Source of the DNA: Brevibacillus sp.
Lineage (GTDB): Bacteria; Bacillota; Bacilli; Brevibacillales; Brevibacillaceae
DNA: 64,000 nucleotides
NCBI GenBank assembly: GCA_017656235.1
Contig: JACDOF010000008.1
Coordinates: 87,036 to 151,035 of the forward strand
Reading direction: 5' to 3'
Made by a program: the position numbers and the translations under genes. This document shows positions 44,617-64,000 of this stretch, piece by piece. Positions within the stretch are counted from its first letter, which is position 1, and each line of letters starts with the position of its first letter. The notes below the pieces were generated by a model. That model ran no database searches. It was not told the origin of the DNA and saw nothing but the letters and a program-made list of their open reading frames with translations.

Positions 44617-44686
44617 ACCTCCTCACAGGTCATGTTATAATCCCACCTAAGTGAATAATCTAGTAGCCTCACTTCCCAAACGTGAA

Positions 44687-44872
44687 GTGAGGTAGAGGCG
44701 CGAAAACCATCAGTACCTTCCCTGAGAAGCGGGAGACGATGACGGGAGTGGGAAAGGGGAATTCGCCGAAGTGCAGGTGGCTTGCCCGAAAACACCTGTG
44801 CTGGGTCTGCGTCGAACAGGCGCAGAACTGTCACCTGCGCGCACCCACGCTGCAGGTGGAGAGCTATCTCAC
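44687..44872 (+). ncRNA. lysine riboswitch (L box)
   Basis: GTGAGGTAGAGGCGCGAA...GGGAAAGGGGAATTCGCCGAAG...GCTGGGTCTGC...AACTGTCACCTG...GGAGAGCTATCTCAC; P1 GTGAGGTAG/CTATCTCAC; upstream of lysC. Confidence 0.93.
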
Positions 44873-44937
44873 CGGGGATGGGCAGGGTTCTGTTCGTCTG
44901 CGTGAAGGGGAAGGGGGATCGGTGCATGTCTATTCAG

Positions 44938-46308: not shown

Positions 46309-46394
46309 GTCTTTTCGCCAAGTGAGTGCATTTGGGTTGACAGTGCATCCCCTGCAAGCGTATGATGGTGACAAATGACAATTGAACAGACGAT

Positions 46395-46505
46395 TCTTAT
46401 CGAGAGTGGTGGAGGGACTGGCCCTATGAAGCCCGGCAACCCCGCTGTATGCGGAGAGGTGCTAATTCCAGCAGGTGCAGGCGTTGCGGCATCTGGAAGA
46501 TAAGA
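46395..46505 (+). ncRNA. SAM-I riboswitch (S box)
   Basis: TCTTATCGAGAGTGGTGGAGGGACTGGCCCTATGAAGCCCGGCAACC...GGTGCTAATTCCAGCAG...GATAAGA; upstream of metX. Confidence 0.97.
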
Positions 46506-46528
46506 TCGGGAGCTGTTACCGTACGGTT

Positions 46529-58619: not shown

Positions 58620-58796
58620 TTGGAGGGTAAAGAAAAGTTGGTGTCTACAGTTCAGGATGGGCGTTCAATGGTGGCCGTCATCACAAAGGAAGAAGTTGCA
58701 CTGGTGGAGAGAGCGTTGGTAGTCGGTTTGACGACCAGTGATGTTGACAAGATCATAAGAAGTATTAAAGAAAACCGATCACCCATTATTGGATGA
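58620..58796 (+). CDS. small prophage protein
   Basis: RBS GGGAGGGG; TTG start; MEGKEKLVSTVQDGRSMVAVITKEEVALVERALVVGLTTSDVDKIIRSIKENRSPIIG. Confidence 0.5.
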   Translation: MEGKEKLVSTVQDGRSMVAVITKEEVALVERALVVGLTTSDVDKIIRSIKENRSPIIG

Positions 58797-59147
58797 TCGG
58801 TTTTGTGCTTCATACCCGGCGATTGTAACTTTCATCTGTTCAAAGAACAATCTTTGTTGCTCAGGAGTAAGTGTAGCAACTTTATCAAGGATTTTTTTTG
58901 CTTCATCGGATATTTCGGGATCCTTTCTGTAGTCGTAGGGAGCCTTTGGGTCGTCAGTTCTGCCGAGTAAGTAATCAATGGAGACACCAAAAAAATCAGC
59001 CAGTTTTTGGAGAGTTTCGTTATCCGGCTCGCGCTTTTGTGCTTCGTAGTTTGCGTAGGTGCCCCTGTGGATTCCAAGCAGTTTTGAAATGCTTGCTTGC
59101 GTTTGTTTCCGTGCCTTTCTTAGTTCGGCGAGACGTTTTCCTAACAC
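58779..59147 (-). CDS. cI-like phage repressor (XRE family)
   Basis: GTG start; MLGKRLAELRKARKQTQASISKLLGIHRGTYANYEAQKREPDNETLQKLADFFGVSIDYLLGRTD. Confidence 0.88.
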   Translation of the reverse strand: MLGKRLAELRKARKQTQASISKLLGIHRGTYANYEAQKREPDNETLQKLADFFGVSIDYLLGRTDDPKAPYDYRKDPEISDEAKKILDKVATLTPEQQRLFFEQMKVTIAGYEAQNRSSNNG

Positions 59148-59200
59148 GAAACCACCCCCTTTGACTTGATTATATCGTTTCAAAATGAAGCAAAAAATAT

Positions 59201-59281
59201 ATGCTTCAATTCGACGATTTTTGTATTGACATGCGTCGTAACGAAGCATATAATGAAATCAAAAGATGCTTCGATTCGACG
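59201..59281. promoter_or_regulatory. phage repressor operator array (three 16-bp sites) overlapping the cro-side promoter
   Basis: ATGCTTCAATTCGACG (59201-59216), CGTCGTAACGAAGCAT (59234-59249, inverted), ATGCTTCGATTCGACG (59266-59281). Confidence 0.8.
59226..59254 (+). promoter_or_regulatory. consensus promoter of the phage early/Cro-like gene
   Basis: TTGACA - 17 nt - TATAAT. Confidence 0.85.
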
Positions 59282-59523: not shown

Positions 59524-59730
59524 ATGATGTCAGGGCAGTCCACCCGTCCAACCCACATATGGTCACTACATGGGGGTGGTGACATGGCACGTAAGAAGAC
59601 AACTCTGCAGGTCGGGAAGGTCACCTACGGTGACAAGGACCCGCAAGAGGCATTTACGGAAGCATTCGCCCCATACTTTGCACAGGCTGCCGAGCAAAAG
59701 CAAGAATCCAAGAAGGTGGTCGGCAGCTAA
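59524..59730 (+). CDS. small prophage protein
   Basis: RBS AGGAGG before ATG; ...MARKKTTLQVGKVTYGDKDPQEAFTEAFAPYFAQAAEQKQESKKVVGS. Confidence 0.55.
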   Translation: MMSGQSTRPTHIWSLHGGGDMARKKTTLQVGKVTYGDKDPQEAFTEAFAPYFAQAAEQKQESKKVVGS

Positions 59731-59821
59731 GCAGGCCGGGGGAACCCGGCAGATTGGACAACCCTACAAACATCATTCCCACTATTACGAATCGTTATAC
59801 ATGCCTGAAAGGAGCGATAGC

Positions 59822-60598
59822 GTGACCCAACTACAAAGCATCTTCCACTATGACGGCGCAAAGCTACGAGTCGTCACCAAGAATGGCGAACCGTGGTTCG
59901 TAGCCAGAGACGTATGCGACATCTTGGAGATCAACAACCCAAGCCAAGCATTGGCGAGGCTGGACGATGACGAGAGGGGTCTCATTTCAACTGACACCCC
60001 TGGAGGCAAGCAAGAAATGGCGGCTGTCAACGAGCCTGGGCTATACTCACTGATCCTCGGCAGCAGGAAGCCAGAAGCCAAAGCATTCAAACGGTGGATC
60101 ACACACGAAGTCATACCATCCATTCGCAAGCACGGTGCCTACATGACACCAGAAACTATCGAGAAAACGCTGAGCGATCCAGATTTCATCATCGGACTAG
60201 CCTCAAGGTTGAAAGAGGAGAAGGAAGCCCGGATGAAGCTGGAGGCCAAGGTGGAAGCAGACCGACCGAAAGTCATCTTTGCCGAAGCGCTGGAGGTATC
60301 AGAGACCAGCATCCTGGTTGGTGAGTTGGCCAAGCTGTTGCGGCAAAACGGCATCCAGATCGGACAAAACAGACTATTCCACTGGCTTCGCACCAACGGA
60401 TACCTCGGAAACAAGGGTGACTATTACAACCTGCCGACTCAGAAGGCGATGGAGATGGGCCTCTTCGAGATCAAGACCAGAACCATCACCAACCCGGACG
60501 GCAGTGTGAGAACAACCAGAACAGCGAAAGTGACCGGCAAAGGCCAGATATATTTCATCAACAAGTTTATGTCTCTCCAGAAAAAGCCCCCGGCATAA
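59822..60598 (+). CDS. phage antirepressor (BRO-N domain plus KilAC/ANT C-terminal domain)
   Basis: GTG start after AAAGGAG; GEPWFVARDVCDILEINNPSQALARLDDDERGLIS; LRQNGIQIGQNRLFHWLRTNGYLGNKGDYYNLPTQKAMEMGLFEIK. Confidence 0.92.
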   Translation: MTQLQSIFHYDGAKLRVVTKNGEPWFVARDVCDILEINNPSQALARLDDDERGLISTDTPGGKQEMAAVNEPGLYSLILGSRKPEAKAFKRWITHEVIPSIRKHGAYMTPETIEKTLSDPDFIIGLASRLKEEKEARMKLEAKVEADRPKVIFAEALEVSETSILVGELAKLLRQNGIQIGQNRLFHWLRTNGYLGNKGDYYNLPTQKAMEMGLFEIKTRTITNPDGSVRTTRTAKVTGKGQIYFINKFMSLQKKPPA

Positions 60599-62397: not shown

Positions 62398-62485
62398 CGC
62401 GGGTTCCTTCCCGCGCCGGGGACGCAGAAATAAAAAATCAGGCTTCCTCTCTCATCTGCGTCTTCGGCGGAGGAATGAACCTCCC

Positions 62486-62635
62486 GGGGCGGTGGCGGAA
62501 GGGTAGACGCACCCCGGAAGTTTGATGCCTGGCTGTACAGCGGGCTGAGACACCTAACCCATGTGAAAAGGCGCGATCAGCATGGGGAGGTCCGGGGCGG
62601 GGAGCGCCGTGCAGGTTCGAGTCCTGCCCGCCCTG
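62486..62635 (+). tRNA. tRNA-like RNA (class II, Leu-like D arm) with ~70-nt insertion in the anticodon loop; decoding function doubtful
   Basis: Acceptor GGGGCGG/CCGCCCT, T8G9, D arm GCG-GAAGGGTAGA-CGC, anticodon-type stem CCCCGGA/TCCGGGG, variable arm, T arm GCAGG-TTCGAGT-CCTGC. Confidence 0.7.
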
Positions 62636-62662
62636 CAACTACATACGAGAGGGGGGGATAGT

Positions 62663-62922: not shown

Positions 62923-63402
62923 ATGCATCTATACGAGTTAGCCGAGAAGTACGCTGAATTGCAACGGCTGGCGGAAGAAGGGGATAGCGAAGCGATCATT
63001 TCCACGCTGCAAGCACTGGAGGACGCAATCGAAGAGAAGGCAGAGAACATCGCCAAGTGGATGCGAAGTCTGAAAGTGGAAAACGAGGCGATCCGCGCAG
63101 AGGAAAAGCGACTGGAGCAGCGTCGCCGAGCCAACGAAAAGCTACACGACAAGCTGGAGAAGTACCTCCAAGAGCAGATGCAGAAGGCAGGGAAGCAGAA
63201 GATCAAGTTACCGACGTTTACGGTGTATCTCCAAAGGAACCAGCCTGCCGTCCAAGTGCTGGACGAGCTTGAGATACCGCCAGTGTTCTGGATATACCCT
63301 CAGCCGAGGTTGGACAAGGCAACGTTGGCGGAACGCCTCAAGGCAGGCGAGCAGATACCGGGTGTGTGTCTCACACAAGAGACCACACTACGGATACGTT
63401 AG
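62923..63402 (+). CDS. Gp157-family siphovirus protein
   Basis: MHLYELAEKYAELQRLAEE...LEDAIEEKAENIAKWMRSLKVENEAIRAEEKRLEQRRRANEKLHDKLEKYLQEQM...IPPVFW. Confidence 0.88.
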   Translation: MHLYELAEKYAELQRLAEEGDSEAIISTLQALEDAIEEKAENIAKWMRSLKVENEAIRAEEKRLEQRRRANEKLHDKLEKYLQEQMQKAGKQKIKLPTFTVYLQRNQPAVQVLDELEIPPVFWIYPQPRLDKATLAERLKAGEQIPGVCLTQETTLRIR

Positions 63403-63411
63403 GGGGGGACG

Positions 63412-64000
63412 ATGATGAGTGAAACAAAATCGCTGGTGAAGAAGCTGGCGCTTGTGATGAAGGAAGTTAAGTACATCCAAAAGCGTGGTTACAACTCATT
63501 CCACAAGTACAAGTACGCGACAGAAGCTGATGTAGCGGAAAAAGTTAGAGAAATCCTTGCGGAGCAAAATGTTATCCTGATCCCCAATATGACAAGCCAC
63601 AGCGTGAGAGAACATACCACCAGCAAAGGAAACAGGGAATATATCGTTACGGTGAGTATGGAGTTTCGGTTCATCGACGGAGATACCGGTGAAACGATCA
63701 CCTTCAACATGACAGGAGAGGGACAGGATAGCGGTGACAAAGGCACCTACAAAGCGATCACAGGCGCACAGAAATACGCACTGATGAAAGCCTTCCTGAT
63801 ACCCACCGGGGACGATCCAGAGGCAGACGAAGGCGCAGACGAACGCAACGCAGCACAAAAAACGAACGGAAAAAAAGAACAAGAACCGTCGCCAGCCCTG
63901 AAAGCCAAGTGGGAGATGCTGGCTGGCACCGTAGACGGGTTCGATGAATGGTACCAAAAACAACGGCAAAACGGCGCGAGCGAAAAAGACATGAACAACT
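63412..64000 (+). CDS. ERF-family single-strand annealing recombinase (3' truncated by window edge)
   Basis: HKYKYATEADVAEKVREILAEQNVILIPNM...VTVSMEFRFIDGDTGETITFNMTGEGQDSGDKGTYKAITGAQKYALMKAFLIPTGDDPE. Confidence 0.9.
   Translation, partial: MMSETKSLVKKLALVMKEVKYIQKRGYNSFHKYKYATEADVAEKVREILAEQNVILIPNMTSHSVREHTTSKGNREYIVTVSMEFRFIDGDTGETITFNMTGEGQDSGDKGTYKAITGAQKYALMKAFLIPTGDDPEADEGADERNAAQKTNGKKEQEPSPALKAKWEMLAGTVDGFDEWYQKQRQNGASEKDMNN

Follow-up and report, generated by a model that had tools for sequence, protein, structure and literature searches.

The tRNA-like element and its locus

The window (the whole 64,000-nt stretch of Brevibacillus sp. DNA analysed here) includes the early region of a prophage, with a repressor gene on the minus strand (58779-59249), an antirepressor gene (59570-60598), a Gp157/Gam-like gene (62923-63402) and an ERF recombinase gene starting at 63412. 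Among the small genes of this region, downstream of the antirepressor and upstream of the Gp157/Gam-like gene, lies a tRNA-like element on the plus strand (62486-62635), in agreement with the first-pass annotation, which had called it phage-encoded. The chromosomal part of the window carries a lysine riboswitch ahead of an aspartokinase-like gene (44685-44874) and a SAM riboswitch ahead of a homoserine acetyltransferase-like gene (46394-46506).

All the outer parts of a canonical tRNA (7-bp acceptor, D arm and T arm) are present, at the positions first assigned to them. The acceptor 5’ strand GGGGCGG (62486-62492) pairs with CCGCCCT (62628-62634), including a G1.U72 wobble. It is followed by U8 (62493) and by a D arm of the tRNA-Leu type, GCG-GAAGGGTAGA-CGC (62495-62510), in which the A14, A15 and G18G19 positions are retained. 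On the 3’ side, a two-base linker GT (62609-62610), whose T62610 corresponds to position 48, the partner of A15 in tRNA, leads into the T arm GCAGG-TTCGAGT-CCTGC (62611-62627), with a stem of 5 bp here versus 6 bp in the four nearest relatives. The acceptor 3’ strand, the final base of the element (N73, a G) and a C74-A75-A76 trailer complete the frame (62628-62638). The base at N-1 is a C, opposite G73, and tRNA-Leu has A73 as its discriminator instead.

What is absent from the element is a 5-bp anticodon stem with a 7-nt loop, U33 and an anticodon. In its place a longer helix closes 72 nt, and we see no anticodon loop that removal of this insert would yield, nor do tRNA-sized relatives have one. 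The analysis thus confirms that 62486-62635 has a tRNA-Leu-type acceptor, D arm and T arm and no anticodon arm. ARAGORN reports 0 tRNA and 0 tmRNA genes over the window, and the earlier statement that this is not a decoding tRNA stands. Rfam has no match to 62486-62635 at gathering level, and a partial RF00005 (tRNA) match at 62594-62635 scores 19.4 bits, below the cut-off of 29. The folding energy of the element is ordinary (z -0.75); since folding energy alone is not unusual, the case for a conserved structure must rest on relatives.

The centre of the element

The helix in the place of the anticodon stem, which we name helix i, is formed by CCCCGGA (62512-62518) and TCCGGGG (62591-62597). 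The region that it encloses (62519-62590) has hairpins of its own, and one hairpin loop presents GGCGC (62570-62574), which can pair with GCGCC (62604-62608) to form a second helix, j, ending two bases 5’ of the T stem. Helix i had been placed correctly from the sequence; helix j had been overlooked. Because helix j crosses helix i, the centre of the window element is a predicted pseudoknot. When the centre is shuffled 100 times, 4 of the shuffled versions reach its crossing score. BLAST finds no homologue of this centre with which to assess covariation, and the support for the pseudoknot comes from an architecture common to the relatives, many of which have one like it with centres of other sequence; helix i is weak in two of them (G007 and L456).

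A class of phage RNAs with a tRNA frame

By pattern scans of IMG/VR and GTDB genomes we assembled at least about 300 distinct relatives, found in prophages, IMG/VR contigs and four cultured phages. The cultured phages are D6E, Geobacillus phage PK3.5, Enterococcus phage EH-TP1 and Leuconostoc phage phiLM33_01, and the members are unannotated in all four. Only short frame queries gave matches in cultured phages. BLAST with 500 bases of the locus against cultured phages and plasmids, and with one whole Bacteroidota-type element against cultured phages, returned no match; such long queries match nothing because the centre varies. The first viral pattern tried, GGGCGGTGGCGGAA, matched mostly unrelated sequence and was rejected, and several apparent members that proved to be genuine tRNA-Leu genes were excluded. 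One contig that matched the frame pattern (L299) also carries an ordinary-looking phage tRNA-Leu, with a TTA anticodon according to ARAGORN (a possible UAA suppressor).

The relatives show that the class keeps a tRNA-Leu-like frame in which an exchangeable centre replaces the anticodon and variable arms. The window element has the features that define the class: P1, the D arm, the T arm and a structured centre in place of the two missing arms. Among the matches listed, the commonest frame is AGTCAGG-TGGCGGAA...GACGC-[centre]-ACAGG-TTCGAAT-CCTGT-CCTGACT, and members with other acceptors occur on contigs filed under Firmicutes, Bacteroidota and Nostoc and in further MAGs. Commonly, the centre takes the form of a pseudoknot of crossing helices, with i following the D arm and j stopping two bases short of the T arm. 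In phage EH-TP1, for instance, i (GAGGGA/TCCCTT) crosses j (GAGTACA/TGTACTC), which is followed by AT and then the T stem. Element lengths among the matches listed run continuously from about 70 to about 370 nt, and members of 86 nt, the size of a tRNA, still have no anticodon arm. The frame is constant across the class and the centre is hypervariable and portable between frames. The centre that we call A is not tied to one frame: besides the usual one, it occupies frames whose acceptors carry compensated changes and, in L527, a tRNA frame of quite another kind. One record can hold several copies, up to at least seven frame matches, and centres differ within one phage. Some members carry extra hairpin modules in the D loop (L158, L175, L172, L240, L303 and L555); one centre occurs with differing D-loop hairpins, and these modules have apparently recombined independently of the centre. 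The centre family that we call C has mostly lost the D-loop GG and largely lost the T-loop consensus, and keeps U8, A14, A15 and U48. Rfam identifies no family other than plain tRNA, and that only in some members (for example RF00005 at 38.4 bits in L138).

Several members and neighbours depart from the common form. The centre of one element (L088, plus strand, about 2664-2830) seems to hold the D arm and T arm of a further tRNA-like unit, as though one tRNA were nested within the frame of another. A Lachnospiraceae/Clostridia subclass (L353, L366, L377, L386 and L439) has the frame CCGGCGG and a conserved centre hairpin, TTTCATGTCTGTGGAA, followed by another tRNA-like sequence. Two Nostoc/Trichormus members on cyanobacterial contigs (L356 and L370) have the frame TAGCGGG and near-identical centres. 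One phage that carries an element also has a DUF3800-VIII RNA (RF03075, 42.5 bits; L009, 792-947, minus strand) adjoining a tRNA-Trp.

Covariation and crossing helices

Most scan patterns included portions of the frame, which makes its conservation partly a built-in feature of the collection. Families A and C were therefore gathered with patterns lying inside the centre only, and since both were found in this way, their constant frame is not an artefact of the search. Family C adopts a four-arm form in which hairpins i and j stand side by side and do not cross. In an alignment of 17 of its sequences, both partners change in 12 of 25 pairs, and the covariation score is 0.261 against 0.113+-0.012 in shuffles, kinship among the 17 sequences being ignored in both figures. 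Pairing holds in 99.5% of cells, compared with 20-53% in slid structures. Over all 30 sequences of the family, again ignoring kinship, every pair of helix i and helix j varies with compensation; helix i, for example, appears as CATT/AATG, CATC/GATG, ACCC/GGGT and AATC/GATT. In family A the helices cross (i is AAGGTTA/TAACCTT, j is GATAAC/GTTATC), and the covariation score is 0.115 (shuffles 0.063+-0.005, kinship ignored), although helix i itself shows no covariation. The GT/AT linker before the T stem is found in 30/30 family C and 28/28 family A sequences, and the centres of both families contain conserved loop sequences. Over the whole set, the crossing of i and j falls in the best 20% of its own shuffles for 87 of 170 non-redundant centres, against 34 expected. 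Compensatory changes in both centre families thus support the predicted fold. The covariation check in homologues proposed in the first-pass annotation has therefore been run and gives the expected compensatory changes, which support its idea of a structured RNA that mimics tRNA.

Flanks, placement and probable maturation

The elements are placed like tRNA genes. In 182 of 183 cases their strand is also that of the neighbouring tRNAs, they are closer to tRNAs than chance would place them, and they are mostly intergenic (22% overlap long frames, against 76% at random places). C74 follows 96% of AGTCAGG-type elements and 97% of the real tRNA genes of the same phage loci, and a U-1 bias and CAA trailers are likewise common to both. 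From flanks, strand and placement resembling those of tRNA genes we infer that the elements, too, are probably cut at the 5’ end by RNase P and at the 3’ end by RNase Z and released as stable RNAs, for which these genomic comparisons give good support.

The discriminator position departs from this likeness. A73 is present in 88% of AGTCAGG-type elements, but N73 is not A in 67 of 318 elements overall and in 38 of the 82 with other frames, while true tRNA-Leu genes have A73 in 25/25 cases. In the non-AGTCAGG frames, N-1 can pair with N73 in 51/82 elements, against 34.0+-3.6 by chance. Such pairing, which includes C-1/G73 of the window, is unusual for an RNase P substrate. With a variable N73 that tends to pair with N-1, these frames often have an acceptor of 8 bp, and charging with leucine is an unlikely general function.

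Leader, downstream domain and the hammerhead slot

The element is preceded in the window by a structured leader (62398-62485, plus strand), made of the hairpin CGCGGG-TTCCTT-CCCGCG (62398-62415), a long hairpin (about 62416-62468) and the hairpin GGAGG-AATGAA-CCTCC (62469-62484); the outer loops of the leader are partly complementary. It is followed by the remnant of a downstream structured domain, ACTACATACGAGAGG... (62639-62662, plus strand). The four nearest relatives (G007, G053, L456 and L463) come from two viral contigs and from prophages in bacteria of the same family. They have a homologous frame in a similar place, with a compensatory change in the acceptor (AGGGCGG/CCGCCCT versus AGGTCGG/CCGACCT), and each has a different centre. 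The leader is thus found in 5/5 loci with five different centres behind it, and the downstream domain in 4/5, the window retaining its first bases only. An ordinary tRNA at this locus in relatives, which the first-pass annotation had named as a refuting observation, was also looked for, and none of the relatives carries one here. Rfam gives no convincing match for the leader of a sister prophage; the leader might itself be a cleavage or antitermination element.

The downstream domain, ACATAGCGAGG...CCTCGTGAC, consists of two hairpins (about 3285-3370 in L463; also in G016, G047, G053 and others). A search with L463 recovered it in further prophages of the family, and it is common to at least about 15 prophage loci. 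Three arrangements occur in front of it: the leader by itself, the leader followed by the tRNA-like part, or a type II hammerhead ribozyme. Rfam reports type II hammerheads (RF02276) once in G003 and twice in G016, and they stand directly before the domain in L581, L596 and L591 (about 1398-1502) and, by eye, also in L584 and L585. The leader occurs without the tRNA-like part in L586, L588, L589, L590 and L592. Of two related prophages, G053 has an element and G016 a hammerhead: their upstream proteins are 92% identical and the downstream RNA domain is common to both. The earlier account of the locus had the arms of the element in the right places and missed the leader, the size of the class and the hammerhead in the same slot.

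Prophage hammerheads have been proposed to cut long phage transcripts (PMC3088659). Since a hammerhead occupies the same slot in related prophages, we read the tRNA-like part as a cut mark. A long early phage transcript would carry the element between the upstream gene and the downstream domain; RNase P would cut before the frame and RNase Z behind it, host enzymes thus taking the place of self-cleavage, and in sister prophages a self-cleaving hammerhead would do the same job. The product would be a stable tRNA-shaped RNA incapable of decoding, a natural version of the laboratory ‘tRNA scaffold’. That the element serves chiefly as a cut mark in the long early transcript of this prophage family is the more tentative part of the proposal. 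Class membership, tRNA-like excision and a cut-site role in this family, taken together, make up an account that is probably right, if by no means securely so. In some sister prophages the leader and the downstream domain are both present and the tRNA-like part and the hammerhead both missing, which implies that the cut in the slot is perhaps dispensable or is supplied by the leader. Conserved loops in the centres of families A and C also indicate that the centre matters, and it would be superfluous for a mere cut site. The leader-only type and the conserved centres favour a further role for the RNA once freed.

Alternative explanations

The freed RNA could itself be the product that matters. 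In the general form of this idea, phages use the tRNA frame as a display scaffold whose swappable pseudoknot ‘heads’ work on host factors in trans, for instance by serving as decoys or RNA antitoxins in phage-host conflict; we take this as a serious possibility that falls short of an even chance. For the window element, a trans-acting RNA, with the frame serving stability and tRNA-like recognition and the variable centre binding host factors, is possible but on the doubtful side. It might act as a decoy for tRNA-attacking defence enzymes, offering them no anticodon to cut, and tRNA-cutting phage defences have been described (PMC13096335). The several copies with differing centres in one phage, the centres that are common to different phages and movable between frames, the conserved loops within covarying helices, and a fast-changing centre on a stable frame, as an arms race would predict, all argue for action in trans. 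Against it, no partner gene or target was found, and the T-loop consensus is largely gone in family C, so some members can do without tRNA-like recognition.

A role in cis, as a regulatory switch or antiterminator in the 5’ leader of downstream early genes, is improbable. The nearest downstream gene is on the same strand in 76% of cases, and this prophage family does have a structured leader and a downstream domain; but elements precede many unrelated genes, tRNA genes among them, and have flanks resembling those of tRNA genes. Still a little less probable is an RNA charged with leucine for use outside translation. LeuRS does not read the anticodon, so the element may be leucine-charged, and both the D arm of tRNA-Leu type and the A73 frequent in AGTCAGG-type elements would suit it. 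The G73 of the window and the other non-A discriminators, the tendency of N73 to pair with N-1 and the missing variable arm of tRNA-Leu tell against it.

Two further explanations we find scarcely credible. An intron of unfamiliar kind in a tRNA-Leu gene would fit the insertion at the usual site of tRNA introns, and a mini-intron had been entertained at first; it is contradicted by the continuous lengths, by the tRNA-sized members that lack an anticodon arm, by the occurrence of one centre in different frames, by helix i taking the place of the anticodon stem and by the absence of any Rfam intron family. The earlier exclusion of a group I intron holds, as the insert has 72 nt and Intron_gpI has no match at gathering level in the window or at E up to 5 in the locus. 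A decaying, once-disrupted and functionless tRNA gene, to which the genuine tRNA-Leu genes as closest tRNA relatives and the lack of a BLAST homologue of the window centre might point, conflicts with the compensatory changes in frame and centre of the relatives and with its retention, each time with a different centre, downstream of one and the same leader in five prophages or phage contigs.

Comparison with known RNAs and significance

The class resembles bacterial tRNA-Leu in its D arm, T arm, U8/A14/A15/U48, U-1 and C74 flanks, strand and tRNA-gene neighbourhood, and differs from it in having crossing helices instead of an anticodon arm or ordinary variable arm, in its variable N73 and, often, in a 6-bp T stem or a paired N-1:N73. 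Like tmRNA (ssrA), it joins tRNA-like ends through pseudoknotted RNA without anticodon decoding; unlike tmRNA, it has a full D arm, no coding tag and no G3.U70 for alanine, is phage-borne and mostly of 70-200 nt with a hypervariable centre, and has no ARAGORN or Rfam tmRNA match. The window element, with G3-C70 and no ARAGORN tmRNA, is accordingly not a tmRNA. In sister prophages the type II hammerhead (RF02276) takes up the same slot, with the same gene upstream and the same RNA domain downstream, but the two are non-homologous; the hammerhead cuts itself, whereas cutting at the tRNA-like part would depend on RNase P and RNase Z. GOLLD and ROOL are also ornate phage RNAs, often near tRNA islands (PMC12286853); they are hundreds of nucleotides long and have no tRNA frame, and neither matches here in Rfam. 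The tRNA-Other of Bacillus cereus is a tRNA-like RNA that serves outside translation (PMC3399842), but it has a Trp anticodon, a larger chromosomal transcript and a single locus, with no phage class.

A further parallel is man-made. In the engineered tRNA scaffold, a foreign RNA is inserted at the anticodon-loop site and is matured and protected by the tRNA frame; the phage class follows the same insertion principle, but it is natural and its insert evolves.

We found no description of the class in the open-access literature, and these decoding-incapable phage RNAs are apparently previously undescribed. The class numbers hundreds of members, and the phages concerned have Bacteroidota, Firmicutes and others as hosts; it has apparently escaped notice because programs that look for tRNAs either pass over such elements or report a tRNA with a gap. 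Its existence suggests that in nature the tRNA frame serves as a carrier in which other RNA folds are matured, and the loci of this prophage family suggest that a tRNA-like part and a hammerhead ribozyme are interchangeable in one slot. With the class defined, the role of many odd phage ‘tRNAs’ becomes directly testable.
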